Source: Rhodoligotrophos appendicifer (GTDB taxonomy: Bacteria; Pseudomonadota; Alphaproteobacteria; Rhizobiales; Im1). Taken from it: a DNA stretch of 64,000 nt. Position 1 is the stretch's first letter. Every line of letters starts with the position of its first letter. Position numbers and translations under genes: made by a program. The notes beneath the pieces are model-generated. The model worked only from the letters and a program-made list of their open reading frames with translations, was not told the origin of the DNA and did not search any database. Shown in pieces: positions 3,068 to 43,020 of the stretch. Location of the stretch: contig NZ_VHKL01000001.1 in the NCBI RefSeq assembly GCF_007474605.1, positions 372,001-436,000 on the forward strand, written 5' to 3'.

Positions 3068-4189
3068 ATGAACATCCATCCTTTGCTGCCCTGCGAGACC
3101 AGACCTACGGACGAGGCGCGCGCGTGGCGCAATGAGGCGATGCGCCAGATCGAAGCCGACTTCAACCGTTCCGCCGATACCCATCTGGTCAGAGTCGAAC
3201 TGCCGAGAGCTCCTGGAATCACGCTCTACCTCAAGGATGAGTCCAGTCATCCCACCGGCAGCCTCAAACACCGCCTCGCGCGGTCTTTGTTTCTCTACGC
3301 TCTTTGCAATGGCTGGATTGGACCTCACACCACGATTATCGAAGCCTCGAGCGGATCGACGGCTGTGTCGGAAGCCTATTTTGCCAAGCTCTTGGGTCTG
3401 CGCTTCATCGCCGTCATGCCCAGAACCACGTCGGCGGAGAAGATTGCCGCCATCGCGTTTCAGGGGGGCAAGAGCCACCTGGTCGATGACCCCAAGACCA
3501 TTTACGCAGAGGCGGCCCGGCTCGCCCACGAAACCGGCGGACTTTTTATTGATCAGTTCACCTTTGCCGAACGGGCGACCGACTGGCGTGGCAACAACAA
3601 CATTGCAGAATCGATCTTTCTCCAGATGGAACGCGAACCGCAGCCCATACCGGAGTGGATCGTCTGCGGCGCCGGGACGGGCGGGACCTCCGCGACCCTG
3701 GGGCGCTACATCCGATATCGCCAATATGCCACCCAGCTTTGCGTGGCCGACCCCCTGGGCTCCGTCTTTCACCGCCACTATGGCGATCGCAGCGTCCGCG
3801 AGGTGGAAGCCTGCGGGTCGGTGATTGAGGGCATAGGGCGGCCGCGCGTGGAACCGTCCTTCATCCCCACCGTCGTCGACAGGATGATTGCCGTGACGGA
3901 TGCCGCGAGCATCGCGGGCAAGCGCATCATCAGCGAAATACTCGGCCGTCGTTGTGGCGGCTCGACCGGCACCAACATCTGGGCCTGCGCCGTCCTCATC
4001 TCCGAGATGCTGGCAAGCGGACAAAGCGGATCGATCGTTACTCTGCTCTGTGATTCCGGCGAACGCTACGGCACGACCCTCTATGACGACGTCTGGCTTG
4101 ACGACCGCAAGATCGACATTGTCGGACCGCTCGCGCAGCTCAGAGAATTCTTCGAGAGAGGCGTCCCGGTCCTCGAGCAATCGGTTTGA
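3068..4189 (+). CDS. PLP-dependent cysteine synthase-fold enzyme (possible cysteine desulfhydrase)
   Basis: Fold-type II PLP enzyme of 373 residues. [13 protein letters not shown] holds the Schiff-base lysine, [12 protein letters not shown] is the phosphate-binding glycine loop, and [17 protein letters not shown] is the substrate-binding Ser/Thr loop. It matches the cysteine synthase-like subgroup that includes enzymes acting as cysteine desulfhydrases rather than O-acetylserine sulfhydrylases, so H2S, pyruvate and ammonia release from cysteine is one possibility. The ATG at 3068 is preceded by GGCGGTGAG; the frame extends further upstream without family similarity. It is divergent from the TRAP genes, and a shared function is only inferred from position. 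Confidence 0.75.
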
Positions 4190-4216
4190 CCACCACCACG
4201 TAACGGGTCTGTCCGA

Positions 4217-4615
4217 TCACTTCCCATATCTGGGGAAAGCACAGGCCAGCTTATTGCCATCCGGATCGCGGACATAGGCGACGTAGAAGTTCGGTCCGTA
4301 AGCCTCGCGTAGGCCCGGCTCACCCTCGCAGCTGCCGCCGTTCTGCAATGCCGCCGCATGAAAGGACTTCACCTCCTCAGCGCTCTTGGCCCCGAAGGAG
4401 ATCATCGTCCCATTGCCAGCGGTCGCCGGTTGACCATCAAACGGTCTGCAGACGTTGAAACTCACACCGTCCTCATAGCTCGGACCCCATGTCGCCCAGC
4501 CGCCCGAAGGCTCGCCTTTGCGTCCGTGTCCAATCGCACCGAGAACCGCGTCGTAGAACGCCACGGACCGTGCGAGATCATTGCTGCCTACGCTGAGATA
4601 GAGAACTGGTGACAT
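4217..4615 (-). CDS. VOC family protein (glyoxalase/dioxygenase fold)
   Basis: Small 132-residue protein of the vicinal oxygen chelate superfamily. It opens with LYLSVGSNDLARSVAFYDAV and ends with YVAYVRDPDGNKLACAFP, the usual VOC beta-alpha-beta signatures. The ATG at 4615 has AGGAAG upstream; the frame is open 11 more codons. It is the last gene of the nine-gene minus-strand operon, 63 bp after a SMP-30 lactonase. Its reaction cannot be told from sequence: VOC members include lyases, isomerases, dioxygenases and binding proteins. Confidence 0.75.
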   Translation of the reverse strand: MSPVLYLSVGSNDLARSVAFYDAVLGAIGHGRKGEPSGGWATWGPSYEDGVSFNVCRPFDGQPATAGNGTMISFGAKSAEEVKSFHAAALQNGGSCEGEPGLREAYGPNFYVAYVRDPDGNKLACAFPRYGK

Positions 4616-4678
4616 GGAGACTTCCTGGCTTCCAAAAAGATCAGACATTATAAGCGGCCGTCGAGATTTGCGAAGAGG

Positions 4679-5557
4679 CTAGGCTCCGAATCGAGGCTCC
4701 GGCACACCTTTGATTCCGAGATCATAGATCGCGAAAAGACTCCCCCGCAGCACGCCGTCTCCCGGGAATCGCGGCAGTGGCGGCTTTGCCATGGAGGTGA
4801 TGAAAAGGATGTCGAGGTTCGGACCGCCGAACATGCAGCTCGTCACCTTTTTAACTGGCATCTCGATGATCCGCTCGACGGTCCCATCCGGCCGGTAGCG
4901 GACGATCTTCCCGTCATACACCTGCGCGTTCCACAAGCAACCTTCGGCATCGACGGTAGAACCGTCCGCCGCACCGCCTGTCGACGTGTCGAGTTTGGCG
5001 AAGGTCCGACGATTGGATACCGCTCCGGTCGCGAGGTCATAGTCATAGGACCAGATCTCGCCCGACCAGGAATCTGCGAAGTAGAAGATCGATCCATCCG
5101 GGCTCCAGCATGGGCCATTTGAGCAGATGATGTCCGTATCCAAGGTGTGGACCGAGAAATCCGGGTCCAGCCTGTAGAGGGCCCCATTGGGGCCTTCCTC
5201 CATCGTGTCCATGGATCCCGCGACGAAGCGCCCCCGTTTGTCGACCTTTCCGTCATTGATGCGATTCTTCTCTTTCCCGGGCTCCGGATCGACGATCAGG
5301 TCCACGTCACCGCTCCTGAAATCGAGCAGATGAAATCCGGTCGCGAGCGATAGTACCGCACCCTGGCCATCCTTGCGCAAAGCCATTGAGCCGATCTTGG
5401 CCGGAACGTCCCAGGCACGAACCTCGCTTCCCTCTACGGTGGAGCGAAAGACACGGCCATCGAAACTGTCGATCCAATAAAGACGCTGCTGTTCAACGTC
5501 CCAAAGCGGCCCCTCGCCCAGGGTCGTCTTGACGTCGACGAGAACTTCGATACGCAT
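4679..5557 (-). CDS. SMP-30/gluconolactonase family protein (copy A)
   Basis: Six-bladed beta-propeller lactonase of 292 residues. The expected metal ligands are visible: Glu in TLGEGPLWD, Asn in SNGPCWSPDG, and Asp in ADGSTVDAEG, with RINDGKVDKRGRFVAGSMD as the substrate-side loop. Members hydrolyse sugar lactones to sugar acids in the cytoplasm. The ATG at 5557 has a strong GGAGGAAG site. A paralogue lies 18 bp upstream in the same operon, and the two share most motifs, which suggests duplication followed by specialisation. The substrate is inferred to be a sugar lactone made or imported by the operon. Confidence 0.9.
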   Translation of the reverse strand: MRIEVLVDVKTTLGEGPLWDVEQQRLYWIDSFDGRVFRSTVEGSEVRAWDVPAKIGSMALRKDGQGAVLSLATGFHLLDFRSGDVDLIVDPEPGKEKNRINDGKVDKRGRFVAGSMDTMEEGPNGALYRLDPDFSVHTLDTDIICSNGPCWSPDGSIFYFADSWSGEIWSYDYDLATGAVSNRRTFAKLDTSTGGAADGSTVDAEGCLWNAQVYDGKIVRYRPDGTVERIIEMPVKKVTSCMFGGPNLDILFITSMAKPPLPRFPGDGVLRGSLFAIYDLGIKGVPEPRFGA

Positions 5558-5575
5558 TGCTTCCTCCGCTTTATG

Positions 5576-6448
5576 TCAGCCGCCGAAGCGAGGTTCCGGG
5601 AGCCCACGCACCCCAAGACCATGAACCGCAAACAAACAGCCTGCCTCGCGTTCCCGGTGATATTCATTGCTCATGGGCCGCGCCATAGAGGTGACGTAAG
5701 CGATGTCCAGATCGGCACCTCCGAAGATGACGCTGGTCGTCGATTGAACGGGCAAACCTACGATCCGGTCCACAACCCCATGCGGATCGAAGCGAATGAG
5801 ACGGCCGGAATAGACTTCCACGCTCCACACGTACCCCTCCTCGTCGACCGTTGCCCCATCGGGGAGGCCGCGAAGCTTATCGAAATTCGTGAATTGGCGG
5901 CGGGAGCGGACAGTGCCGGTCTCCATGTCATAGTCGTACGCGTAGATCGCGCGTGTACCTGTATCAGCGAAATAAAGCGTCCGCCCATCCGGACTCCAGC
6001 AAGGACCGTTGGAGCAGATGATCCCGGTGTCGAGAAGATGCAGCGACAGGTCGGTGTCCAGACTGAAAAGTTTTCCGACGGGATCCCTCTCCTCGAAATC
6101 CATGGATCCAGCGATGAAGCGGCCTCGCGCATCGACTTTGCCGTCATTCAGGCGCGGCCGTAACTCACCGGGCTGTGTTTCATTGATGCGCGTGACCTCG
6201 CCGCTGTCGAAGTCCAGAAAGTTGAATCCGCTGCGCAAGGCGAGAACTGCTCCACCCTGTCGCCTCAGCGCCATGGAACCGATGGGTTCGGGAACCGGCC
6301 ATTTGCGCCGGTCCCCGCCACTCGCATCCATGCTGTAGATCGCCGGGGCATAGCTGTCGATCCAGTAGAGACGCTGCTCCTCAACATCCCATAAGGGCCC
6401 CTCGCCGAGACTGTCTCGCTGATCGCCGATCTGCTCGATCCGCAGCAT
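5576..6448 (-). CDS. SMP-30/gluconolactonase family protein (copy B)
   Basis: Second lactonase-like beta-propeller, 290 residues. Metal-site motifs are SLGEGPLWDVEE, CSNGPCWSPDGRTLYF and GLPDGATVDEEGYVWS. It is clearly paralogous to the next gene downstream but has diverged throughout, so both copies are probably functional rather than a recent duplication. It starts with ATG at 6448, 12 bp after the BKACE gene, with only a weak ribosome site, so translation may depend on coupling. Lactone hydrolysis to the open acid would feed the dehydrogenases and the BKACE enzyme encoded upstream. Confidence 0.9.
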   Translation of the reverse strand: MLRIEQIGDQRDSLGEGPLWDVEEQRLYWIDSYAPAIYSMDASGGDRRKWPVPEPIGSMALRRQGGAVLALRSGFNFLDFDSGEVTRINETQPGELRPRLNDGKVDARGRFIAGSMDFEERDPVGKLFSLDTDLSLHLLDTGIICSNGPCWSPDGRTLYFADTGTRAIYAYDYDMETGTVRSRRQFTNFDKLRGLPDGATVDEEGYVWSVEVYSGRLIRFDPHGVVDRIVGLPVQSTTSVIFGGADLDIAYVTSMARPMSNEYHREREAGCLFAVHGLGVRGLPEPRFGG

Positions 6449-6460
6449 GGTGCTTGATCC

Positions 6461-7393
6461 TCAGAAGTTGACCTGATCGCCACCCTTGAGGCTGAGGATC
6501 TCCCGGGCTTCGTCAGGCGTCGCCACTTGCTTGCCCAGACCTTCGATGATCTTTCGCGCCAGGGTGACCTGCTCCGCGTTTGACTTCGCCAAGATGCCCT
6601 TACCCGCCCAAAGGCTGTCTTCGAGCCCGACGCGGATGTTGCCGCCCATGGCTGCGGACATGGAAGCGATCCGAAGCTGAGCTGCGCCGGCACCAAGGAC
6701 CGACCACCGATAATTATTGCCGAACAGGCGGTCGGCAGTCCGCTTCATGTGCATGACGTCTTCCGGATGCGTGCCGATGCCGCCGAGCAAACCGAAGACC
6801 GACTGCACGAAGAATGGCGCCTTCACCAGGCCACGATCCGCGAAATGGGCCAAATTGTAGAGATGGGCGATGTCGTAGCATTCGAACTCGAAGCGGGTGC
6901 CATTGTCGTAGCAAGTCTCCAGGATGTACTCGATGTCCTTGAAACTGTTCCGGAACACGAGATCACGTGTGGCCTCGAGATGCTGCTTCTCCCAATCGAA
7001 CTTCCATTCCTTGTACTTGTCGACGAGATGATACAGACCGAAATTGATTGACCCCATGTTCAGCGAGGCAACCTCCGGCTTGAAGTGCGCGGCGGGCCGA
7101 ACCCGCTCCTCGACCTTCATGTAGGGGCTGCCTCCAGTCGTGATGTTGATGGCCGCATTCGTGTTCTGCTTGATCCGCGGAAGAAACCGGGCGAAGGCCT
7201 CGGGCGTCTGGTCCGGTTTGCCAGTTTCGGGGTCTCGCGCATGCAGATGCAGCACCGCGGCACCGGCTTCCGCCGCGGCGATCGCCTCGGCAGCGATCTG
7301 ATCCGGGGTGATCGGCAGATAGGGCGACATGGTTGGCGTGTGAATCGCGCCTGTGATGGCGCAGGTGATGACGACTTTACCTTCGACTGACAT
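6461..7393 (-). CDS. Beta-keto acid cleavage enzyme (BKACE, DUF849)
   Basis: 310-residue TIM-barrel enzyme of the BKACE family. It condenses a 3-keto acid with acetyl-CoA to give an acyl-CoA plus acetoacetate. The zinc-binding HLH pair is at residues 49 and 51 (AVLHLHARDPETG), and the third ligand region FEFECYDIAHL is present. TTGGSPYM and GLEDSLWAGKG are further family marks. I chose the ATG at 7393 because family similarity begins there, though the frame continues upstream. It sits between a hydroxyacyl dehydrogenase and two lactonases, so its substrate is probably a 3-keto sugar acid. 2-deoxy-3-ketoribonate is the known precedent for a BKACE sugar-acid substrate. Confidence 0.9.
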   Translation of the reverse strand: MSVEGKVVITCAITGAIHTPTMSPYLPITPDQIAAEAIAAAEAGAAVLHLHARDPETGKPDQTPEAFARFLPRIKQNTNAAINITTGGSPYMKVEERVRPAAHFKPEVASLNMGSINFGLYHLVDKYKEWKFDWEKQHLEATRDLVFRNSFKDIEYILETCYDNGTRFEFECYDIAHLYNLAHFADRGLVKAPFFVQSVFGLLGGIGTHPEDVMHMKRTADRLFGNNYRWSVLGAGAAQLRIASMSAAMGGNIRVGLEDSLWAGKGILAKSNAEQVTLARKIIEGLGKQVATPDEAREILSLKGGDQVNF

Positions 7394-32584: not shown

Positions 32585-34483
32585 TCACTGCGGAAGACGG
32601 TAGGCGACGACCTGATCCGAGACTTCCGGCTTTAAAATGGAATTGCCGCCGACCGCGAACACGACATAGTCCACGCCTTCATGAGTGAACACTGCCGGTA
32701 TGGAGACGGCGGGAGCTTCAACCAGATCGGACCAGAGCTCGCGTCCCGTTCGTGCATCGAGTGCACGCACGCGGGAATCGACGGATGCCCCGAGGAAAAC
32801 AACGCCACCCGCAGTGGCCACAGGCCCGCCCAAGGTTGGTGACCCCCATGATCTTAAGCCGTAAAATCCCTTGAGCTGCGCGCGTCCGAACGGCGTTTCG
32901 TAGAGCAGTTCGCCGGTGCTCAGATCATAGGCCGAAAAGGTACCAAACGGCGGCTCCCAGCACGGCATACCTGCCCAGTTGCTCCAATCGGTGAGATGAA
33001 TGCCGTAGGGCGAACCTTTCTGGGGAGAGTGACCTTCTTCGTTTCCGCCTTCTGCGTCCTGTATCTGCTCGTACTTGTCACGCGGAATCAGGCGGATCAC
33101 CTGAACGATGCGCGAGGCGTTCACATAGAGCGTGGCGCTGCGCGGGTCTACGGCAACGCCGCCCCAGTTCGTCGCTCCGGCTGTGCCGGGGAAGAAGAGG
33201 GTCCCCTGTTCAGAGGGTGGCGTGAAGATGCCCTCATAGAGATAGTTTTCCCGATCACGGGAGCACTGGCCGAAGCTCACCAGATCGGCGAGCCACCAAA
33301 CATCAGGAAGTTCGAGTGGATTTCCGACCGGGCGCGGGGTCAGGGCGAAGGGTTGCGTGGGGGCTGTCACCTCGCCATCGGCAGTGCTTTGCGGTGTCGG
33401 GCGATCTTCAACCTTGAACAGCGGCTCGCCGGTCCGGCGGTCGAGCACGAAGAGGAAGCCCTGCTTGGTTGCCTGCACAAGCGCCGGAATTGTCGTCCCG
33501 TTTCGTTCGATATCGACGAGGGTTGGCGCGGACGGAGTGTCATAGTCCCAGATGTCGTGGCGCACATGCTGGAAACTCCAGGCGATCTCGCCGCTTTCAA
33601 TGTTGACGGCGGTCACTGATGTTGCCAATGGGATCGGATCGGTCCGATCACCGCCCCAATAGTTGGGGCTTGGCGAAGAAACCGGCGCGTAGACCAGGCC
33701 AAGCTCCGGATCCGCTGTCATCGCCGTCCAGATATTGGCTGTGCCCGTTTTCGAGATCAGCTCTTCGGGAATGAAATTGGCTTCCCATAAAAGTTTGCCG
33801 GTGCGCGCATCGATTGCCAGAAGATTTCCTGGAGGCGCGACACGATACTCCCAATCCTTACCGGCCCAGCCAAGGAGAAGAGTGTCGCCCACCACGAGCG
33901 GCGGCTGGAGCAGCGAGAAAGGGAAAACGTCGTTGACGGTGTTCCATTGGTTGACGTTCAGCACGCCGCTGTCGCCAAACATGGCGCATCGCTTGCCGGT
34001 GTCGGCGTCCACGGCGTGCAACTCTGCGTCCATCGTCCCGATGAATACCCGCTTTTCACAGGCGCCGGCTTGGCCGCTCTGCCAGTAAGCAACGCCGCGA
34101 TTTTTGAGTGCGGGCTGCGTCAGCGCCTCGAGGGTGGAGTCGCTGTTGTAGGCCCAGCGCTCCTCGCCGGTCGCGGGATCGAGCGCGATGATCCGATAAA
34201 ATGGCGTTCCAACGTAAAGCGTCTTATTGGCGTAGACCGGTGTGGCAGACCAGACCGTCTCCGGGAGTTCGCCCGAGCCGTCGGACACGTCACCCGTACG
34301 ATAATCCCAAACCCGCTCAAGGCTGCCGACTGTGTCGGGAGTGAAACTCTGGGCCTTCGAGAATTTTGTGGAGGCCAGGTCGCCGTGAAACGCCGTCCAT
34401 TCGGATTGCTGCGCAGGGGCAGGACCAACCGTTGCGAACAGAAGAGCGAGAGAAATGGCGGCACAGCGAGCGCTGGAAATCAT
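32585..34483 (-). CDS. PQQ-dependent dehydrogenase catalytic subunit (glucose dehydrogenase-like)
   Basis: 632-residue periplasmic eight-bladed propeller quinoprotein with a signal peptide ending near APAQQ. Repeated W-motifs such as GWAGKDWEYRVAPPGNLLAID and ALDARTGRELW mark the blades. RHDIWDYDTPSAPTLVDI matches the active-site segment of membrane glucose dehydrogenase. It oxidises a sugar or alcohol and passes electrons to ubiquinone. Unlike E. coli Gcd it lacks the N-terminal membrane domain, which is encoded by the gene just upstream; the two genes overlap by four bases. Confidence 0.9.
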   Translation of the reverse strand: MISSARCAAISLALLFATVGPAPAQQSEWTAFHGDLASTKFSKAQSFTPDTVGSLERVWDYRTGDVSDGSGELPETVWSATPVYANKTLYVGTPFYRIIALDPATGEERWAYNSDSTLEALTQPALKNRGVAYWQSGQAGACEKRVFIGTMDAELHAVDADTGKRCAMFGDSGVLNVNQWNTVNDVFPFSLLQPPLVVGDTLLLGWAGKDWEYRVAPPGNLLAIDARTGKLLWEANFIPEELISKTGTANIWTAMTADPELGLVYAPVSSPSPNYWGGDRTDPIPLATSVTAVNIESGEIAWSFQHVRHDIWDYDTPSAPTLVDIERNGTTIPALVQATKQGFLFVLDRRTGEPLFKVEDRPTPQSTADGEVTAPTQPFALTPRPVGNPLELPDVWWLADLVSFGQCSRDRENYLYEGIFTPPSEQGTLFFPGTAGATNWGGVAVDPRSATLYVNASRIVQVIRLIPRDKYEQIQDAEGGNEEGHSPQKGSPYGIHLTDWSNWAGMPCWEPPFGTFSAYDLSTGELLYETPFGRAQLKGFYGLRSWGSPTLGGPVATAGGVVFLGASVDSRVRALDARTGRELWSDLVEAPAVSIPAVFTHEGVDYVVFAVGGNSILKPEVSDQVVAYRLPQ

Positions 34484-34827
34484 GAGGCGGTCCTGCGAAC
34501 GCTTGAGAAAAAGGCAAAGATGAAGCTCAGGAATGCGGCCCCCATCGCAGCAGCAAAGACGAACTGCATGAGGAACCAGGCAGCGACTGCGGTAAGCCCT
34601 GCAGCCAAGAGCAAGACAAAAACAAAGACGAGTACACCCCGATTCGGCATCACCCCCAGAACCAGAAGCCCGGTGCCTGCCGCTGTTACCCCCGCGCCGA
34701 TCAATGCCAGCAGAGCTCCCAGTGACCCGTCGACACCCGTGTTACCAAGCGGCGCAGCATATGCGGCCAAGGCAAGGCCGAGGCCGATAACAGAAAAAAG
34801 AAGCGATGCGAGAAACTTGTGCTGCAT
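34480..34827 (-). CDS. Membrane anchor protein for PQQ dehydrogenase
   Basis: 115-residue hydrophobic protein with four predicted helices (FLASLLFSVIGLGLALAAYA, GALLALIGAGVTAAGTGLLV, VLVFVFVLLLAAGLTAVAAW, FAAAMGAAFLSFIFAFF). It resembles the detached N-terminal domain of membrane-bound glucose dehydrogenase. The ATG at 34827 is chosen over a TTG two codons earlier. The four-base overlap with the dehydrogenase gene indicates coupled synthesis and a complex of the two proteins. Confidence 0.75.
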   Translation of the reverse strand: MQHKFLASLLFSVIGLGLALAAYAAPLGNTGVDGSLGALLALIGAGVTAAGTGLLVLGVMPNRGVLVFVFVLLLAAGLTAVAAWFLMQFVFAAAMGAAFLSFIFAFFSSVRRTAS

Positions 34828-35190
34828 ACCCAAGCCAACGTGAAAAAAAGCGACAGGTTCCAGCCAAACTTTTGCTCCAGTGGTTTAGAGCTCCCTGTCC
34901 GATGGCCACCACGCTGATCTCCCACAGACTCTGCCCTAGATTGCTTGTGCACCTGAAGATGGAGACTCCGCTGCAGCGTAGCCTGCGATTGGATACGGTC
35001 CGTGGAATAGGATTTTCAGCAGTGTTTAATTGTCCACGGTCCGATCAGCGGATGCGTCTGTTACGGACCGAATGCGCACTCAAGATGATCACCTGCCCCT
35101 CCGTTGACTTACGTTATAACATAACATATCGATGAGACGAGTAGAGGGAGGCAACGAGCCCTCGACCGTCCATGGTAAGGAAATGGTGAG
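34828..35190. other. Divergent intergenic region with Zur-like box
   Basis: 363 bp between the PQQ dehydrogenase pair and the zinc-binding protein gene. Apart from the Zur-like box and promoter elements near 35104-35132 I see no RNA gene or credible coding frame. Confidence 0.5.
35104..35132 (+). promoter_or_regulatory. Promoter with Zur-like box 1
   Basis: TTGACT at 35104-35109 fits a -35 element, with a weak -10 (TATCGA) 17 bases later. Between them is ACGTTATAACAT (35111-35122), a near-perfect palindrome of the TGTTATAACA type seen in proteobacterial Zur boxes. Binding there would block RNA polymerase. The same core recurs before two other operons in the next 3.5 kb. Confidence 0.65.
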
Positions 35191-36159
35191 ATGATCAGAA
35201 CACTGGCTGGCGCATTGGGTGCAACGAGTTTGCTGCTGCTGGGGAACGTCGCTGCATCTGCCGAGCCGCTCAAGGTCGTCGCCAGCTTCTCCATCATTGC
35301 AGATTTCGCGAAAAATGTCGGTGGCGACAGGGTAGAGATCGTCACCCTGGTCGGACCGAATGGCGATGCGCATGTCTATGATCCGAAGCCCTCTGACGCC
35401 GCTGCTCTTGCCGCAGCTGACGTGGTGCTCACCAACGGTCTTCAGTTTGAGGGCTTCTTGCCGCGCCTAATCAAGGCTTCGGGCGCGAAAGCGCCGATGG
35501 TGGAACTGACGAAAGGCGCCGAGATCCTGAAGGTCGAGGAGGAACCTCACGCGCATGCGGAGGCCGGCGAGCATCAGCATGAAAAGGCTGAGGACCACGA
35601 CCATGAGGAGGGCCATCACCATCATGGAGAATTTGATCCGCATGCGTGGCAATCGGTCCACAATGCAGAAGTCTACGTAAAGAACATTGCTGACGCCTTC
35701 TGCGCCGCGGATAAGGCGGGATGCGACACCTACACGGCAAATGCCAAGATCTACACCAATGCGCTCAAGGCGTTGGATACCGAAATCAAGGCGGCCGTAG
35801 CGGAGATCCCTGAGAACAAGCGCACCGTCATCACCTCGCACGACGCCTTCGGCTATTTTGAGCACGAATATCAGATCATCTTGCTCGCCCCCGAGGGCAT
35901 TTCGACGGATACCGAAGCCTCTGCCGCCGACGTCGCTGCTCTGATCAGACAGATTAGAGAAGACAAGGCTTCCGCGATCTTCGTCGAAAATATCAGCAAT
36001 CCAAAGCCGATAGAGCGGATCGGCCAGGAGACAAACTTGAAGGTGGGCGGCGAGCTTTTTTCAGACGCACTCTCAGAGGAGAGCGGTCCAGCCGCCACCT
36101 ATATCGAGATGATGCGCCACAACATCAAAACGATCAGGGGCGCCGTGCTCGGGGACTGA
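35191..36159 (+). CDS. Zinc ABC transporter substrate-binding protein (ZnuA/AztC type)
   Basis: 322-residue periplasmic metal-binding protein with a signal peptide (cleavage near ASAEP). Expected metal ligands are visible: His in [12 protein letters not shown], His in [10 protein letters not shown], His in [11 protein letters not shown] and the acidic residue in [11 protein letters not shown]. Between residues about 112 and 150 there is a His/Glu-rich loop typical of zinc-specific members. No permease or ATPase gene is adjacent, so it must use one encoded elsewhere. A Zur-like box precedes it. Confidence 0.9.
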
Positions 36160-36213
36160 CCAGCGCGAAAGGCGACAAGGCGGAGCAATCCCGCTTTCTG
36201 TCCACCATAAACT

Positions 36214-36231
36214 GTTATGTTATAACATATC
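36214..36231 (+). promoter_or_regulatory. Zur-like box 2
   Basis: ATGTTATAACAT at 36217-36228 is a perfect palindrome, extended on both sides to about 16 bp with two mismatches. It lies 20 bases upstream of the GTPase start codon. It shares its core with the boxes at 35111 and 38318. Confidence 0.75.
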
Positions 36232-36247
36232 AATCACAGAGGTCCGA

Positions 36248-37462
36248 ATGCCCTCACTTCTGCCTGTCACCGTTCTCTCAGGCTTTCTCGGAGCCGGAAA
36301 GACGACACTGCTCAATCACGTTCTGAACAACCGCGAAGGACGTCGGGTCGCCGTCATCGTCAACGACATGAGCGAAGTCAACATCGATGCCGACCTGTTG
36401 CGGGAGGGAGGCGCAAACCTGTCTCGCACGGACGAGAAGTTGATTGAAATGACCAATGGATGCATCTGCTGCACGCTGCGGGACGACTTGCTCGCCGAGG
36501 TCCGCCGTCTCAGCGAGGATGGTCGCTTCGACTACCTGCTGATCGAGGGCACTGGCATCGCCGAGCCCCTGCCTATCGCCAGCACCTTCTCGTTTCGTGA
36601 CGAGGATGGCCAAAGCCTGTCCGACATCGCGCGACTCGATACAATGGTCACCGTGGTCGATGCCGCCAACCTGCTTCAGGACTATGGTTCGCGAGATTTC
36701 CTGCGCGATCGTGGAGAGACGGCGGGCGAAGAGGACGAGCGGACTTTGGTCGACCTTCTGGTTGAACAGATCGAGTTTGCAGATGTCGTCGTCATCAACA
36801 AAACTTCCGCCGTGTCCCCCGAGCAGCTCTGGCTCGTGCGCAAAGTGGTCGTCGCACTAAATCCGGATGCCCGTATCGTCGAAACCGATTACGGGAGAGT
36901 GCTCCTGGGCGATGTTCTCGATACCGGCCTGTTCGACGAGGGCAAGGCCCAGCAGCATCCGCTCTGGTTCAAGGAACTCTACGGGTTCGGAGAGCATGTG
37001 CCAGAGACGGAAGAATATGGCATCACGAGCTTCGTCTACCGCGCACGCCGACCGTTCCATCCAGAGAAGTTCAGTTCGGTCATCAACGCGACCTGGCCAG
37101 GGCTCATCAGGGCAAAAGGCCATTTCTGGCTGGCCACCCGGCCCAACTGGGTGGGCGAGTTTTCGCTGGCAGGCGCCATCGGTCATGTCAGCGGCATGGG
37201 CTTCTGGTGGGCGGCCGTCCCGAAGGAGCGTTGGCCCGACGATGCCGAGTGGCGGTCGATTCTGAATCGCAACTGGGACAGGGTCTGGGGCGATCGGAGA
37301 CAGGAGCTGGTGTTCATCGGCACCGGCATGGACGAGCTGGCGATACGAACAGCGCTTGACGAGTGCCTTGTCGGATCAGGAACGAACCCAAGCTTCGATC
37401 CCCAAGCCTATCGCCATCTGCACGATCCCTTTGCCTCCTGGGAGCGCGTTCATGCAGCCTGA
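36248..37462 (+). CDS. COG0523 GTPase, zinc metallochaperone (ZigA/CobW family)
   Basis: 404-residue G3E GTPase. Walker A is [15 protein letters not shown], Walker B region [11 protein letters not shown], and VVINKTS replaces the usual NKxD. The metal-binding CxCC motif is [15 protein letters not shown]. The C-terminal CobW_C domain includes [16 protein letters not shown] and [15 protein letters not shown]. Zur-controlled members deliver zinc to client enzymes during starvation. A Zur-like box lies just upstream and a DUF1826 gene overlaps its end by 11 bases. Confidence 0.92.
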
Positions 37463-38132
37463 ACGGTCTGTTGGTGTGGCTCGCCTGATCGCTGCAGATC
37501 TGCATCCGGGAGCTCAGAGGCTTTCGCGAACAAGTCTGGAAGCCGGCCCGATCAGTCTCCTGCCGAGGACGTTGGAGCCCTTCATCCTTCACGCCATCGA
37601 CTCGATTCCTGTTGCAGCGCTGCCTTGCCTGCGTCTGGAGGGCACTGGCTTCAGCATGAAGGCCGCGCTGCATGGGGCCTTCATCGCCAGCGAATTCGCG
37701 CCCGATTGGCTGGCCGACTGGATGTCTGATGATATCGCCTTCCTTGCGCATCTGTTTCAAGACTTGACGGGCGCCCAGACGGTCCAAGTGCGGCTCGAAG
37801 CGGTCGACGATGATGGCTGCAGGCGTTTCCACGCCGACGCGGTCCACTTTCGGCTGGTGACCACTTATCGCGGCCCCGGCACCCAGTGGATTTCACCCCG
37901 CGCGCTGTGCGGACGGGCTCCAGCAAGCCCTGTCTCCAGAGAGGCGATCCGTCAGCTCGACCGCGGAACGGTGGCCATTCTCCGCGGCAGCAAGGGAGAG
38001 ACGCCCGAGCGCCCGAGCCTGCTGCATCGTTCACCGCCCATAGAAGGAAGCAACATCGTGCGCTTGTTCTTGGCGATCGATGATGCGGCAGACCACGATC
38101 ATTCGACACAGGAGAAGAGCCATGATCAGTGA
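37452..38132 (+). CDS. DUF1826 family protein
   Basis: 226-residue soluble protein of unknown function. The segment [23 protein letters not shown], given here by its core [10 protein letters not shown] and [10 protein letters not shown], and a His-containing LLHRSPP are typical of DUF1826. The conserved His/Asp pattern recalls 2-oxoglutarate-oxygenase-like metal sites, though this is only an impression. The ATG at 37452 overlaps the GTPase gene, as often seen for these two families, so it probably works in zinc sparing. It ends in a His-rich tail ([17 protein letters not shown]). Confidence 0.8.
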
Positions 38133-38205
38133 AGCCAAGTGCTTGAGCAGTGCATTCCGTTCTCATTTGGAGCAGCTGCGCAGCTGTGTGACAAACGAAG
38201 CTTGA
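38122..38205 (+). CDS. Possible 27-residue small protein
   Basis: A short frame beginning with ATG at 38122 and preceded by a strong AGGAGAAG site. It overlaps the DUF1826 stop by 11 bases and contains two Cys residues (AKCLSSAF, LRSCVTNEA). The good ribosome site is the only support, so it may be chance. Confidence 0.25.
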   Translation: MISEAKCLSSAFRSHLEQLRSCVTNEA

Positions 38206-38317
38206 GCCTGACCACGGCTCGCCACGGAGTCCGCCTCATCTCAGGAGATGCCATTCGAGAGCCAGATCCCGCTGGTGAATGTGGACAGGCGAGGCGAGTA
38301 GATGTTACAACAAATGT

Positions 38318-38331
38318 AATGTTATAATATT
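38318..38331 (+). promoter_or_regulatory. Zur-like box 3
   Basis: AATGTTATAATATT is a 14-bp palindrome with one mismatched pair and shares the TGTTATAA core with the two upstream boxes. It lies 28 bases before the start of the nickel/peptide-type binding protein, so this importer is probably in the same regulon. Confidence 0.7.
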
Positions 38332-38359
38332 GCAAGTACGCTTTCTTTGGGGATTTCTC

Positions 38360-39880
38360 ATGCTGCACAGGTTTATCACGGTGCTCGCCACCTTGATATT
38401 TGTTGGTCTTTCTCCTGCCTTGGCGGAGAATGACCAGGTGCTGGACGTCGTGGCACCCTTCGAAATCAAAGGGACGGATCCTTCGCTGTCCGGCGACATT
38501 TTCCTGAAGATGGGCATCGTCGAGACGCTGGTGGACGCCGACCGCGACGGCAATCCGACCCCGGCTTTGGCCGAGAGCTGGGAGAGGTCGGAGGACGCCA
38601 CCGTTTGGCGCTTCAAACTGCGGCCGGGCGTGCGCTTTCACGACGGTTCGATGCTCTCGGCTGATAGTGTCGTCAAGTCGTTGACCGTGGCCAGGAGCAA
38701 ACCCGGCATTCTCGACAAGGCGCCCATTACAAGGATCGAGGCCGATGGCGACGATGTTGTCATCCGGCTGTCCAAGCCCTTTGCTCCCCTGCTGGCTTTT
38801 CTTGCCGAAAACCGGGCGCAAATTCTGAGTCTCGGCAGCTTCTCTGCCACCGACGAGGTCACCAGCGTGATCGGAACGGGCGCCTATCGGTTGACCTCCC
38901 TGCAGGCGCCCCAGAAGTTGACCACGGAAGTCTTCCCAGACTATTGGGGCGACAAGCCCGTCATCGGCGGCACGACATATCTCGCAGTCGGGCGCGCCGA
39001 GACCCGCGCCCTGATGGCCGAAAGTGGCGACGCCGACTATGTCTTGAACCTTGATCCGGCAAGTCGCACGCGGTTGGCGGCGAGCGATAAAGTCGATGTC
39101 CTAGCGGTCTCTATTCCCCGCTCGGTGCTCCTCAAGGTTAATGCCGGTCATCCTTTTCTCGACGATGTGAAAGCACGTCAGGCCCTCAGCCTCGCAATCG
39201 ACCGCGAGGGCATCGCCGCAGCGATCTTGCGATACCCTGCAGCTGCTGACCAGCTCTTCCCGCCAAGCGTCGGCACCTGGCATAACGCGTCGATCGCACC
39301 GCTTGCCCATGATGTGGAAAAGGCGAAGGCGTTGCTTGCTGAACTCGGCTGGAAGCCGGGCGCCGATGCCGTGCTCGAACGCGACGGCAAGCGATTCTCG
39401 CTGACCCTCACCACCTATCCCGATCGCCCAGAACTTCCCCTGATCGCCGCGGTGCTGCAGGAGCAATTCCGAGAAATCGGAGTCGAGGTGACGATCAACT
39501 CGACCAATTCCAGCGAGATCCCCGCCAAGCATCAGGATGGTTCCCTGGAAATCGGGCTTGTGGCCCGGAACTTCGCCCTGGCGCCGGATCCAATTGCGAC
39601 CGTGTTGCAGGACTATCCGCCGAAGGGCGGCGACTGGGGTGCCATGAATTGGTCGAACCCGGAATTCGAGACGCTGATCGCGGCTCTTGCGACGGCATCG
39701 AGCACGGAGGACGGCCAGACGCTGCGCGACAAGGCGGTGGCTATTCTTCAGGATGAGCTCCCGGTCATTCCGATCGCCTGGTATCAGCAGACGGCTGGCG
39801 TCTCGAAATCGGTGAAAGGGGCGGCGATCGATCCTTTCGAGCGCAGCTTCGGGATTTCCAAGATGCGATGGGCAGAGTGA
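38360..39880 (+). CDS. Nickel/peptide-type ABC transporter substrate-binding protein (SBP_bac_5)
   Basis: 506-residue exported protein with a signal peptide ending SPALAEN. It has the cluster C binding-protein features: FLKMGIVETLVDADRDGNPTP as the family opening, WRFKLRPGVRFHDGSMLSAD, RQALSLAIDREGIA and ALLAELGWKPG. Relatives bind oligopeptides, nickel chelates, opines or metallophores. The ATG at 38360 is preceded by GGGGAT. The Zur-like box upstream argues for a zinc-related ligand such as a Zn-chelate. It overlaps the first permease gene by 13 bases. Confidence 0.9.
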   Translation: MLHRFITVLATLIFVGLSPALAENDQVLDVVAPFEIKGTDPSLSGDIFLKMGIVETLVDADRDGNPTPALAESWERSEDATVWRFKLRPGVRFHDGSMLSADSVVKSLTVARSKPGILDKAPITRIEADGDDVVIRLSKPFAPLLAFLAENRAQILSLGSFSATDEVTSVIGTGAYRLTSLQAPQKLTTEVFPDYWGDKPVIGGTTYLAVGRAETRALMAESGDADYVLNLDPASRTRLAASDKVDVLAVSIPRSVLLKVNAGHPFLDDVKARQALSLAIDREGIAAAILRYPAAADQLFPPSVGTWHNASIAPLAHDVEKAKALLAELGWKPGADAVLERDGKRFSLTLTTYPDRPELPLIAAVLQEQFREIGVEVTINSTNSSEIPAKHQDGSLEIGLVARNFALAPDPIATVLQDYPPKGGDWGAMNWSNPEFETLIAALATASSTEDGQTLRDKAVAILQDELPVIPIAWYQQTAGVSKSVKGAAIDPFERSFGISKMRWAE

Positions 39881-40814
39881 TCAGGACGCTTGGTTATCGT
39901 CTGTTCCAGGCCGTCTTGGTGGCTGTGCTGGTCGGCCTCCTGACCTTCATTCTCGTCCGCTCCCTGCCGGGTGACATGGCCTATCGTATCGCTGCCGGGC
40001 GGTACGGCTACGACATGGTCGACACGGCAGCCGCAGAGAGGGTGCGCCAGGAGCTCTCTCTGAGCAGCGGGTTGGGCCTTGAAGCGCTCCTCTCCTGGTT
40101 CTGGGACTTGCTTCGGTTCGATCTGGGCACCTCGCTGGTCTCGAGCCAGCCGGTGATCGGCGAAGTTACGCATCAGCTTGGCCATACCCTCGGCCTGGCA
40201 CTTGCGGCCATCGTCCTCTCGATGCTTATGGCCCGCCGCCCGGCATTCTCGCCGGACTGAAGCCGGACAGCGTGCTCGACCGTGGATTGCTGCTGGTCTC
40301 GACGGGCATTCGGGCCCTGCCGCATTTCGTTGTCGGATTGTTGCTCATCATCCTCTTCGCCGCGCATCTCGGCCTGCTTCCCGCAGCGGGGCACGGACGG
40401 CAGGAGCACATGATCCTTCCCGCACTGACACTGGCCCTCGGCCTAGCCTCGGTGTCGAGCCGTGTGGCTCGCGACGCGATGGTCGGGGTGGCGGGCTCTG
40501 CCTATTATAGCTTCGGCCGAACCAAAGGGCTCTCCGAGGCCCAGATGTTCCGTCGGCATGGGCTGCGCAATGTCAGCGTGCCAATCGTGACCTATCTCGG
40601 CATTCAGTTCGTCTATCTTGTCGAGGGCGTAGTGGTGGTGGAAACGCTCTTCGCTTGGCCGGGCATCGGCCATGCCCTGGTCCACGCCATCTTCGCCCGC
40701 GATGTTCCCATGATTCAGGGGACAGCGCTGGTGATGGGGCTGATGTTCGTCACGCTGAATGCCTTGATCGATCTCGCCTGTTACTGGCTCGATCCGCGCA
40801 GGCAGCCGGCATGA
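39868..40814 (+). pseudogene. Nickel/peptide-type ABC permease 1 (NikB/DppB-like), frameshifted
   Basis: The reading frame breaks near 40230. The first part (39868-40260) ends in LGLALAAIVLSML and then runs into an unrelated tail and a TGA. The second part in the +1 frame resumes at about 40241 with GILAGLKPDSVLDRG and continues to 40814 with the EAA loop region RRHGLRNVSVPIVTYLG. Restoring one base, for example a third G in ATGGCCC, joins the halves into an ordinary DppB-like permease of about 315 residues. Since the downstream genes are intact and coupled by ATGA overlaps, a sequencing error or a recent mutation are both possible. Confidence 0.8.
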
Positions 40815-41629
40815 TGTCGCCGGGCCTCTCGCTGACCCTGGGCGCGCGCTGGCCCGTCCATCGCATCGTCGGTGTGACGCTGATGACGGCGATCTTCGCC
40901 TTCGCCTTTCTCACCCCCCTGTTCTGGCCCGTCGATCCCACCCGTCAGAGCTTGAGGAATGTCCTGGTGGGCCCGAATTGGGCAGAACCTCTCGGTTATG
41001 ACCATCTCGGCAGGTCGATGCTCGCACGCCTGTCGGCGGCCCTGAGGCTGTCGCTGGGCCTGGCTTTTCTCAGCGTCTTCACTGCCGCTGTGCCAGGGGT
41101 CGCGCTCGGCATCCTGGCAGCCTGGAAAGGCGGTCTCGTCGACCGCGCTGTGTCGTTGCTGGCGGATGTCTTTCTGGCACTTCCCGGACTGCTTCTGGTG
41201 CTGATGCTGTCTGCGATCGTCCCCAACTCCCCCGCCATGCTCTATGTCGGCATCTCTCTGGTTCTGTGGATCGAGTATTTCCGCCTCACCCGCGCCCTGA
41301 CTCGCACGCTCGTTACCGCTCCGGCCGTGCAGGCATCGCGCCTTCTCGGTTTCGGCCGGTTTTATATCTTCCGCCGGCACCTCTGGCCGGAAATCGGTCC
41401 TTTGCTGCTGACGGTCGGCGCTTTCGGAGCGGCGACCGCTATCATGGCGATCGCAGCCCTGGGCTTCGTCAGCGTGGGTGTGCGCCCCCCGACGCCCGAG
41501 CTCGGTCTCATGATGATCGAGCTGCTCCCGTATTATCAGGAAGCACCGCATGCACTCCTGCAGCCGATCTTGGTGCTCTTCCTGCTGGTCCTCAGTCTCA
41601 ACCTCATCGGCGGAAGCAAGCAGAGATGA
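40811..41629 (+). CDS. Nickel/peptide-type ABC permease 2 (NikC/DppC-like)
   Basis: 272-residue inner-membrane permease. It begins with a single helix, then PLGYDHLGRSMLARL, the usual DppC gate motif (GTDxxGRD variant). The EAA loop is ASRLLGFGRFYIFRRHLWPE. The C-terminus PELGLMMIELLPYYQEAPH is typical. The ATG at 40811 overlaps the previous stop by four bases, and the following ATPase also overlaps by four. Confidence 0.92.
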   Translation: MMSPGLSLTLGARWPVHRIVGVTLMTAIFAFAFLTPLFWPVDPTRQSLRNVLVGPNWAEPLGYDHLGRSMLARLSAALRLSLGLAFLSVFTAAVPGVALGILAAWKGGLVDRAVSLLADVFLALPGLLLVLMLSAIVPNSPAMLYVGISLVLWIEYFRLTRALTRTLVTAPAVQASRLLGFGRFYIFRRHLWPEIGPLLLTVGAFGAATAIMAIAALGFVSVGVRPPTPELGLMMIELLPYYQEAPHALLQPILVLFLLVLSLNLIGGSKQR

Positions 41630-43020
41630 CGGTGCTCCTCACTGCGAAGGACGTGGCCGTCACCGCCGGCGATACGCTGCTAAAGCCTGCCTCGCTCGTG
41701 CTTCACAAAGGCCGCCCATTCACCATTCTGGGCGAAACAGGGTCCGGAAAGAGCCTGCTCGCTCAGGCCATCATGGGGACCTTGCCCAAAGGCCTGTGCG
41801 CTTCCGGCTCCGTGACCATCGGCGATCGCATACTGGATCTTTCCCAGGACGGCAACCATCGCAGCCTGTGGGGAACGGTGATCGGTGTGCTGCCGCAGGA
41901 GCCTTGGATGGCACTCGACCCGACGATGCGAGCGGTCCGCCAGGTCGAGGAGGGGTATCTGTATGTGCGGGGCGCCGACCGCGACACCGCGCGACGGTCC
42001 GCCAACACAGACCTGGCCGAAATCGCCCTCGAAACGGCCAGCGAAAAGCTGCCGTCACAGCTGTCCGGCGGCATGGCGCAACGCGTTGCCTTCGCTGCAG
42101 CACGCGCTGGAGGGGCTGCCATCATCATCGCCGATGAGCCGACCAAGGGGCTCGACGTGGCCCGCCGCGACGATGTGATCGCGCTTCTGGCGAAGGAGGT
42201 CGCATCCGGGGGTGGGCTGCTCACCATCACCCACGACCTCGAGCTGGCACGGCGCCTTGGGGGTGACGTCGCGATCATGCTGGAGGGCAAAGTGATCGAA
42301 CAGGGAGCGGCCGAAGCTGTCTTCCGGGCCCCTTCGCATGAATATACCCGGCGGCTCATCGCGGCCGATCCCGCGTCATGGCCGATGCGGGAGAAGACGG
42401 CGCCGGCCGGTCGGAGCATTCTGGTCGCGGAAGGGCTTGCCAAACGCCGTGGCGGGCAGCAGCTGTTCAAGGGCCGCGACTTCGCCGTCGGTGCGGGCGA
42501 AATTGTTGGCATCACCGGTCCCAGCGGTTGCGGCAAGAGTACATTCGGCGACATCCTTCTCGGTCTGTTGCAGCCCGATGAAGGCATCGTCTCTCGCTCC
42601 CCCGATTTCGCTCCGATCCGCTTCCAGAAGCTGTACCAGGATCCGCCCTCCGCCTTTCCGCAGCGGGTCACCCTCCGCTGTGCGCTGGACGACCTGGTGG
42701 CGCTGCATCGTCTCGACGAAAAACGCATCGCGCCGCTGTTGCACCGCCTGCGCCTGCCGGCATCCCTGCTCGACCGATTGCCCTCCGAGGTTTCGGGCGG
42801 GGAACTGCAACGGCTGGCCTTGCTGCGGGTGCTCTTGCTGGATCCAGTGTTCCTGTTCGCGGATGAACCCACGTCGCGCCTCGACCTCATCACCCAGCGT
42901 GAGACGATCGAGCTCTTGATCGAGATCGCCAAGGAGAGCGGCTGCGCTCTCCTGATCGTCAGCCACGATGCGGAGCTTATCGAGAAAACAAGTGATCGGA
43001 GTATCGCTTTCACTCTTTGA
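41626..43020 (+). CDS. Fused double ATP-binding protein of nickel/peptide-type ABC importer
   Basis: 464-residue protein holding both ATPases of the importer. Domain 1: GETGSGKSLLAQAIMG, signature LSGGMAQRVAFAAARAG, Walker B AIIIADEPTKGLD. Domain 2 from about residue 265: GPSGCGKSTFGDILLG, signature VSGGELQRLALLRVLL, Walker B FLFADEPTSRLD. Domain 2 is short, about 200 residues, and lacks the usual oligopeptide-type C-terminal extension. In most Ni/dipeptide importers these are two proteins. It ends the four-gene operon. Confidence 0.92.
   Translation: MTVLLTAKDVAVTAGDTLLKPASLVLHKGRPFTILGETGSGKSLLAQAIMGTLPKGLCASGSVTIGDRILDLSQDGNHRSLWGTVIGVLPQEPWMALDPTMRAVRQVEEGYLYVRGADRDTARRSANTDLAEIALETASEKLPSQLSGGMAQRVAFAAARAGGAAIIIADEPTKGLDVARRDDVIALLAKEVASGGGLLTITHDLELARRLGGDVAIMLEGKVIEQGAAEAVFRAPSHEYTRRLIAADPASWPMREKTAPAGRSILVAEGLAKRRGGQQLFKGRDFAVGAGEIVGITGPSGCGKSTFGDILLGLLQPDEGIVSRSPDFAPIRFQKLYQDPPSAFPQRVTLRCALDDLVALHRLDEKRIAPLLHRLRLPASLLDRLPSEVSGGELQRLALLRVLLLDPVFLFADEPTSRLDLITQRETIELLIEIAKESGCALLIVSHDAELIEKTSDRSIAFTL

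Follow-up and report, generated by a model that had tools for sequence, protein, structure and literature searches.

Cnt, the best-known cluster C ATP-binding cassette (ABC) importer of a zinc chelate, serves a chelator that is made by the same cell. The present analysis concerns a stretch of 64,000 nucleotides from the genome of Rhodoligotrophos appendicifer (contig 1, positions 372001-436000, of an assembly of 5.59 Mb in 33 contigs), referred to here as the window, in which three Zur-type boxes precede three units: a gene for an AztC-type zinc-binding protein, a ZigA-type GTPase gene with a DUF1826 gene, and a cluster C importer. As a whole, this group of units is best explained as a local part of the Zur regulon that includes an importer of a zinc chelate, to which we assign a probability of about 0.6.

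Several described systems resemble parts of this arrangement. The Cnt system of Staphylococcus aureus is described as an importer of the Opp/NikA type that is expressed in zinc shortage and is then used for zinc together with staphylopine (PMC5666155), and a published map of opine zincophore clusters contains importers of two ABC types, one of which is the dipeptide/oligopeptide type (PMC7438024). In the RNA sequencing of Paracoccus denitrificans, the genes pden1338-1344 are grouped, which encode a COG0523 protein, two hypothetical proteins and a nickel/dipeptide-type ABC importer; they were upregulated 8.6- to 16-fold in zinc-depleted medium, with 12.6- to 16-fold for pden1341-1344 (PMC5387054). 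A Zur motif lies before pden1338, the COG0523 gene, and before pden1341, the gene of the binding protein, and in gel shifts Zur bound the promoters of pden1341 and aztA to a similar extent (PMC5387054). The authors termed the Zur control of the pden1341 importer “somewhat unusual” and, in the available part of the paper, assigned no substrate to it (PMC5387054). Likewise, no substrate assignment for an importer of the pden1341 type was recognised in the accessible parts of the literature searched. Control by Zur has been published for an importer of this type in Paracoccus; what is new here is the conservation of the boxes across related loci. A review has tabulated Zur regulons, and none of the three alphaproteobacteria in its table is given a cluster C importer (PMC6103462). 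With regard to the second unit, DUF1826 has been placed in the clusters of Zur-regulated COG0523 members in a figure legend, whereas the words peptide, dipeptide and ABC transporter do not occur in the available main text of the same paper (PMC2770081).

The units in the window resemble the Paracoccus genes pden1338-1344 in gene types and gene order. In the corresponding locus of P. denitrificans DSM 413 (L046), a ZigA gene is followed by a DUF1826-like gene and then by the importer genes; the binding protein of this locus is 61-62% identical to that of the window, and the locus carries the box letters of pden1341 as given in Table 7 of the published study (PMC5387054). It differs from the window in that no AztC gene is called in front and permease 1 is one frame of 315 amino acids. 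Compared with the known type, the copy in the window has an additional AztC gene in front, and its permease is split.

Three palindromic boxes had been claimed in an earlier note on this DNA, and they were found at 35107-35126, 36213-36232 and 38315-38334, with 64, 15 and 25 bases between the end of the box and the ATG of the AztC-type gene (35191), the ZigA gene (36248) and the first importer gene (38360), respectively. Against the 20-mer TGTNATRTTATAAYATNACA, the first box has three mismatches and the second and third have one each; the looser 15-mer TGTTATNNNATAACA matches at 35112 in the first box with one mismatch and in the second box exactly. The note had proposed a genome-wide scan for Zur sites. 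Up to three mismatches to the 20-mer are found at five sites in the whole genome and at none for the reversed control; three of the five are the boxes of the window, and both sites outside it precede genes of zinc-related types. The fourth site is located on contig 4 before a FolE gene (TIGR00063 216.2 bits, cut-off 181.6), behind which a carbonic-anhydrase-like hexapeptide protein is encoded (115.9 bits for the best match in NCBIfam, against a cut-off of 380), and the fifth on contig 5 before an aztABC-like operon (L016). The 15-mer with at most one mismatch also gives five sites, which are 35112, 36213 and 36218 in the window, position 382589 of contig 4 before folE, and position 83895 of contig 5 before the aztABC-like operon. 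With up to two mismatches it gives 30 sites in the genome as opposed to 27 for the reversed control, and since this is about the frequency of the control, such sites were not used as stand-alone evidence. The 20-mer was shaped by the boxes of the window, so that the independent support comes from the two sites outside the window and from a box on contig 14. Scans for promoters and terminators yielded no excess over shuffled sequences. Taken together, the genome scan and the relatives place the Zur-type box in promoters above chance, as expected of members of a Zur regulon.

The box on contig 14 is a 15-mer site with two mismatches that ends 3 bases before the ATG of a Fur-family gene (L102), one of three in the genome. 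The encoded protein matches Pfam FUR with 37.9 bits and, in NCBIfam, the Zur model alone, with 125.6 bits and thus below the cut-off of 167; we take L102 as the candidate zur gene of this genome. Zur control of the units in the window, as proposed in the earlier note, is very likely: it is strongly supported by the genome-wide sites at other zinc-type genes, by the boxes kept in relatives, and by the published Paracoccus RNA sequencing and gel shift (PMC5387054). From this we infer that Zur also acts in this strain.

In order to follow the boxes across relatives, the best 80 of 160 confirmed loci (binding proteins 48-69% identical to that of the window) were combined with a locus of a congener (L019, 50%) to a set of 81, and a box was counted if at least 10 of the 12 fixed letters were present. 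A box is found near the start of the binding-protein gene (-320 to +180) in 58 of the 81 loci, before the match start of the binding protein in 57, and, by a looser test, anywhere in the locus in 64. Within a narrower stretch (-250 to +60), 51 of the 81 loci have a box as opposed to the 0.65 expected from shuffles of these stretches. The longest-start gene calls misplace some starts of the binding-protein gene, hence the different counts of 51, 57 and 58; shuffled stretches were used as the control, and random stretches of the loci contained real boxes. A box of this quality is also present upstream of 25 of 533 other genes, at least 13 of which are divergent neighbours (groups 20, 43 and 46) that share the intergenic stretch of the importer. 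Some loci have the box before the head gene of the row instead of at the binding protein, the head gene being a COG0523 gene (L054, L072, L077), a DUF1826 gene (L060) or a Fur-family gene (L069). Zinc genes accompany the importer in 21 of the 81 loci (ZigA in 12, DUF1826 in 10, Zur-like in 9, AztC-like in 7 and ZnuA-like in 6, with overlap), and in 68 loci at least one of the two, a box or a zinc gene, is present. The nearest relative, from a Microvirga metagenome-assembled genome (L020), has AztC, Zur-like, ZigA and DUF1826 genes adjoining the importer, and in three metagenome-assembled genomes of the Granulosicoccaceae (L089, L090, L097) a Zur-like gene is divergent from the importer at a distance of at most 0.7 kb (Pfam FUR checked for L090).

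The relatives with a box include rhizobia, roseobacters, Erwinia/Pantoea and Halomonas. A survey across the class detected a related importer in at least 3 of 384 other genomes (E-value of 1e-120 or better, with at most three candidates scored per genome). In a tree of 79 of the 82 binding proteins, constructed with a quick method, alpha- and gammaproteobacterial rows interleave; the alphaproteobacterial rows need six changes, three of which are forced by well-supported branches, and this would fit transfer without proving it.

The gene families named in the earlier note for the three units are confirmed by Pfam and NCBIfam matches. The first unit, on the plus strand like the two others, is the gene of a periplasmic AztC-type zinc-binding protein of 322 amino acids (35191-36159; Pfam ZnuA 296.3 bits), which narrowly passes the NCBIfam AztC model (351.1 bits, cut-off 350). 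No aztAB genes lie beside it, and describing it as an orphan, as in the earlier note, is thus right locally but not for the genome, which has the aztABC-like operon on contig 5 under a box of its own. This likeness to the AztABCD-type zinc importers is limited by the missing aztAB in the window and by the scores on contig 5, where AztA passes its cut-off (221.9 bits against 220) and the AztB-like permease (256.5 against 280) and the AztC-like protein (308 against 350) remain below theirs. Since the AztC-like protein of contig 5 is 48% identical to that of the window, the first gene of the window may encode a second binding protein for aztAB. The aztABC-like operon is followed by a gene for a histidine-rich NicO-type nickel/cobalt transporter (L016, 4023-5102, minus strand; Pfam NicO 146.3 bits). 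The second unit consists of a ZigA-type COG0523 zinc-chaperone GTPase of 404 amino acids (36248-37462; Pfam cobW and CobW_C), which scores 616.4 bits against the NCBIfam ZigA cut-off of 600, and a DUF1826 protein of 226 amino acids (37452-38132; Pfam DUF1826 147.4 bits), whose gene overlaps the end of the ZigA gene. The third unit begins with a solute-binding protein of 506 amino acids (38360-39880; Pfam SBP_bac_5 249.7 bits) with an N-terminus that resembles a signal peptide by eye and a fold of the NikA/Cnt/Dpp type, which identifies the importer as one of cluster C. The split permease 1 is followed by permease 2 with 272 amino acids (40811-41629; Pfam BPD_transp_1 59.4 bits; Opp2C/NikC-like in NCBIfam, below the cut-offs) and by one chain of 464 amino acids with two ATP-binding domains (41626-43020), in which two ABC_tran stretches are NikD-like (residues 22-247) and NikE-like (269-460), again below the cut-offs.

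The three units would form a local part of the Zur regulon of this genome. When zinc is plentiful, zinc-loaded Zur would bind to overlapping dyads with a GTTATAAC-type core and block the three promoters. In zinc shortage, the second AztC-type zinc-binding protein would be made, perhaps feeding the aztAB pump encoded elsewhere, along with the ZigA zinc-chaperone GTPase, its DUF1826 partner and the cluster C importer. The importer would most likely take up zinc on a small chelator that other organisms make and that perhaps bears carboxylates, and the chelate may reach the periplasm via porins, because none of the five 20-mer sites precedes an outer-membrane receptor gene; zinc as the cargo, a chelate as its form and porins as its route are what we infer here. 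Import of a zinc chelate is also the best reading for the importer family, and we consider it about as probable as the explanation of the three units as a whole. More tentatively, we propose that Zur-controlled cluster C importers of Alpha- and Gammaproteobacteria enable bacteria that make no zincophore to take zinc on the chelators of others, such as plants and microbes, or on free amino acids, e.g., histidine. If this is true, these bacteria would have a dedicated scavenger of zinc chelates without a zincophore of their own. The value of the finding lies in the breadth of the importer family and in the question of the ligand: as the boxes are present in many relatives and no synthesis gene was found in this genome (the opine search being without a positive control), the identity of the ligand would tell which zinc chelates these bacteria meet, and the published Paracoccus operon makes this question testable.

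The uptake of a zinc chelate, already suggested in the earlier note, is plausible as far as the fold and the analogy to Cnt and staphylopine go. The model of the binding protein has a mean predicted local distance difference test score (pLDDT) of 91.8, and its best Foldseek matches include NikA (2noo, template modelling score TMq 0.85), apo CntA (5yh5, 0.85), NikA from B. suis (4oer, 0.84) and DppA (1dpe, 0.83). Because all of them match closely, the fold cannot decide between a metal chelate and a peptide. In sequence profile searches NikA and CntA come ahead of DppA, with the NCBIfam cut-offs missed for both NikA models (TIGR02294 174.8 bits against 393, NF045468 222.3 against 600) and for CntA (126.2 against 800). 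Compared with NikABCDE nickel importers, which provide the nearest solved folds and are among the best profile matches, profile alignment places NikA Arg97 and Arg137 at Lys114 and Arg152 of the window protein, and differs at His416, where the window has Gly423. According to the title of the structure entry 3qim, this histidine is essential for nickel uptake in NikA. The conservation of these positions was assessed in an alignment of 55 of the 82 binding proteins, picked for spread and leaving out L019, fragments and near-copies; 45 of the 55 have lysine or arginine at the place of Arg97. Arg97 and Arg137 are taken here to have a role in ligand binding. Basic sites that are mostly kept, without the histidine of NikA, may leave room for a carboxylate-bearing chelator. 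From CntABCDF of S. aureus, with which it shares the cluster C fold, the importer in the window differs in the missed CntA cut-off, in having its two ATPase domains in one chain and in the synthesis genes, none of which was found in its genome (for the opine dehydrogenase without a positive control). A nicotianamine synthase (NAS)-type gene (PF03059, the family to which CntL presumably belongs) was not found in the genome itself, with the control matched in 1 of 14 genomes, an archaeon. An opine dehydrogenase of the CntM type (PF10100) was found neither in this genome nor in 49 genomes of relatives, drawn from 50 of the 80 named loci, or 299 genomes of the phylum, a search in which no positive control matched anywhere. 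The absence of synthesis genes nearby, as stated in the earlier note, is thus supported in part, by the outcome for the NAS-type gene.

Some observations weigh against the uptake of a zinc chelate under Zur control. The box motif derives in part from the window itself, and 13 of the 81 loci lack both a 10/12 box and a zinc gene in the available stretch; several of these 13 are incomplete, and several carry a 9/12 box, which after shuffling is still expected in about 6 of 81. The nearest relative, from Microvirga, has no box of at least 9/12 between 4.5 kb upstream and 0.4 kb downstream of the start of the binding-protein gene, so that the box rule is not universal. As a structural match, DppA (TMq 0.83) nearly equals NikA and CntA. 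Arginine is present at the place of NikA Arg137 in just 34 of the 55 aligned proteins, and the place of His416 is occupied by glycine in 43, asparagine in 8 and threonine in 4 of them. Finally, the importer is split in this assembly.

The split concerns permease 1, which changes frame at about 40230, corresponding to residues 120/121 of the permease of the Microvirga relative. The first piece (39868-40260) corresponds to residues 1-120 of that permease and is 59-70% identical to five relatives; the second (40272-40814) corresponds to residues 121-314, is 68-81% identical to these relatives and matches Pfam BPD_transp_1 with 118.9 bits. Five intact relatives align to 39868-40230 (or 39877-40230) and then from 40230 on, as two pieces in different frames. 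The importer had been described as full in the earlier note, which did not hold: instead of two intact permeases and two ATPase domains, permease 1 is split and the rest is present. For this reason, the importer as assembled should not work, unless the split is a sequence error, and the function of this copy is doubtful. That it is a relic in this strain, with a genuine break in permease 1 that leaves the AztC and ZigA/DUF1826 units as the only active ones, is a serious alternative that falls a little short of even odds. When the 81 related loci were examined with tblastn, the permease was found as a single frame of 290 residues or more, uninterrupted by a stop, in 73 of them; five more have one frame with 314 aligned residues and a single stop, which we read as the normal gene end (the seven shortest permease genes encode 311 amino acids), and two are cut by the end of the contig. 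The permease is thus read through in 78 of the 79 relatives with enough DNA, and the exception, which matches only to residue 131, seems to be split too (L075). Neither the binding protein nor the permease has a second close copy in the genome, the next best permease being 37% identical. On the other hand, the reading frames of the two pieces, of permease 2 and of the ATPase are otherwise open and their sequences well conserved, which would fit a sequence error as well as a very recent mutation, and in two other draft genomes it is the frame of the binding protein that is in two pieces (L077, L085).

A different cargo is conceivable as well. The importer could carry a metal-free peptide or amino acid, for instance one with histidine or cysteine, that is needed by zinc-starved cells, without any zinc entering. 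We regard this as unlikely, although the dipeptide binder fits the model almost equally well and His416 of NikA is not kept. In a congener (G002), a related importer (L110, 8905-11170, minus strand; binding protein 50% identical, box 9/12) immediately follows urocanase and HutD genes, which is a single hint towards histidine; the hut linkage was sought in the related loci and found at none besides this one. The uptake of a metal-free ligand is further opposed by the recurrence of zinc-uptake and zinc-chaperone genes beside the importer in 21 of the 81 loci and by the profile, in which NikA and CntA rank above DppA.

Less probable still is nickel or cobalt, imported to replace zinc in zinc-starved cells. 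The nearest solved structures and the family names are those of nickel binders, the NicO-type gene lies behind the aztABC-like operon, and earlier work, as recounted in the study on Cnt, found that the loss of CntA lowered cobalt and nickel transport (PMC5666155). However, the equivalog cut-offs for NikA are missed by far, and among the neighbouring proteins of related loci that were scanned, which are a part of all neighbours, no nickel enzyme was found. That the boxes answer to another Fur-family regulator is very improbable, even with three Fur-family genes in the genome and a Zur candidate below its NCBIfam cut-off, since all five 20-mer sites lie at zinc-linked gene types or, in the case of the importer, at a gene that is zinc-responsive in Paracoccus, the motif is similar to the gel-shifted Paracoccus Zur sites, and the Zur candidate has a box at its own start and Zur as its best model.

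Further genes were observed near related importers and in the window. In Cupriavidus respiraculi (L098), a few bases separate the end of a TonB-dependent receptor gene (4682-6832) from the start called for the related binding-protein gene, in a locus with no 10/12 Zur-type box. Among solved structures, the receptor matches best two entries that carry the labels CntO and FoxA and score about equally; other siderophore receptors come next. In Pantoea dispersa (L082), a gene for a Peripla_BP_2 binding protein (3737-4753) is located 3.2 kb upstream of the importer and is immediately preceded by two Zur-type boxes of 11/12 that overlap each other. In the window, on the minus strand, a small open reading frame of 117 amino acids with no Pfam or NCBIfam match (34480-34833) precedes the gene of a pyrroloquinoline quinone (PQQ)-type dehydrogenase (32585-34483; 607 bits).

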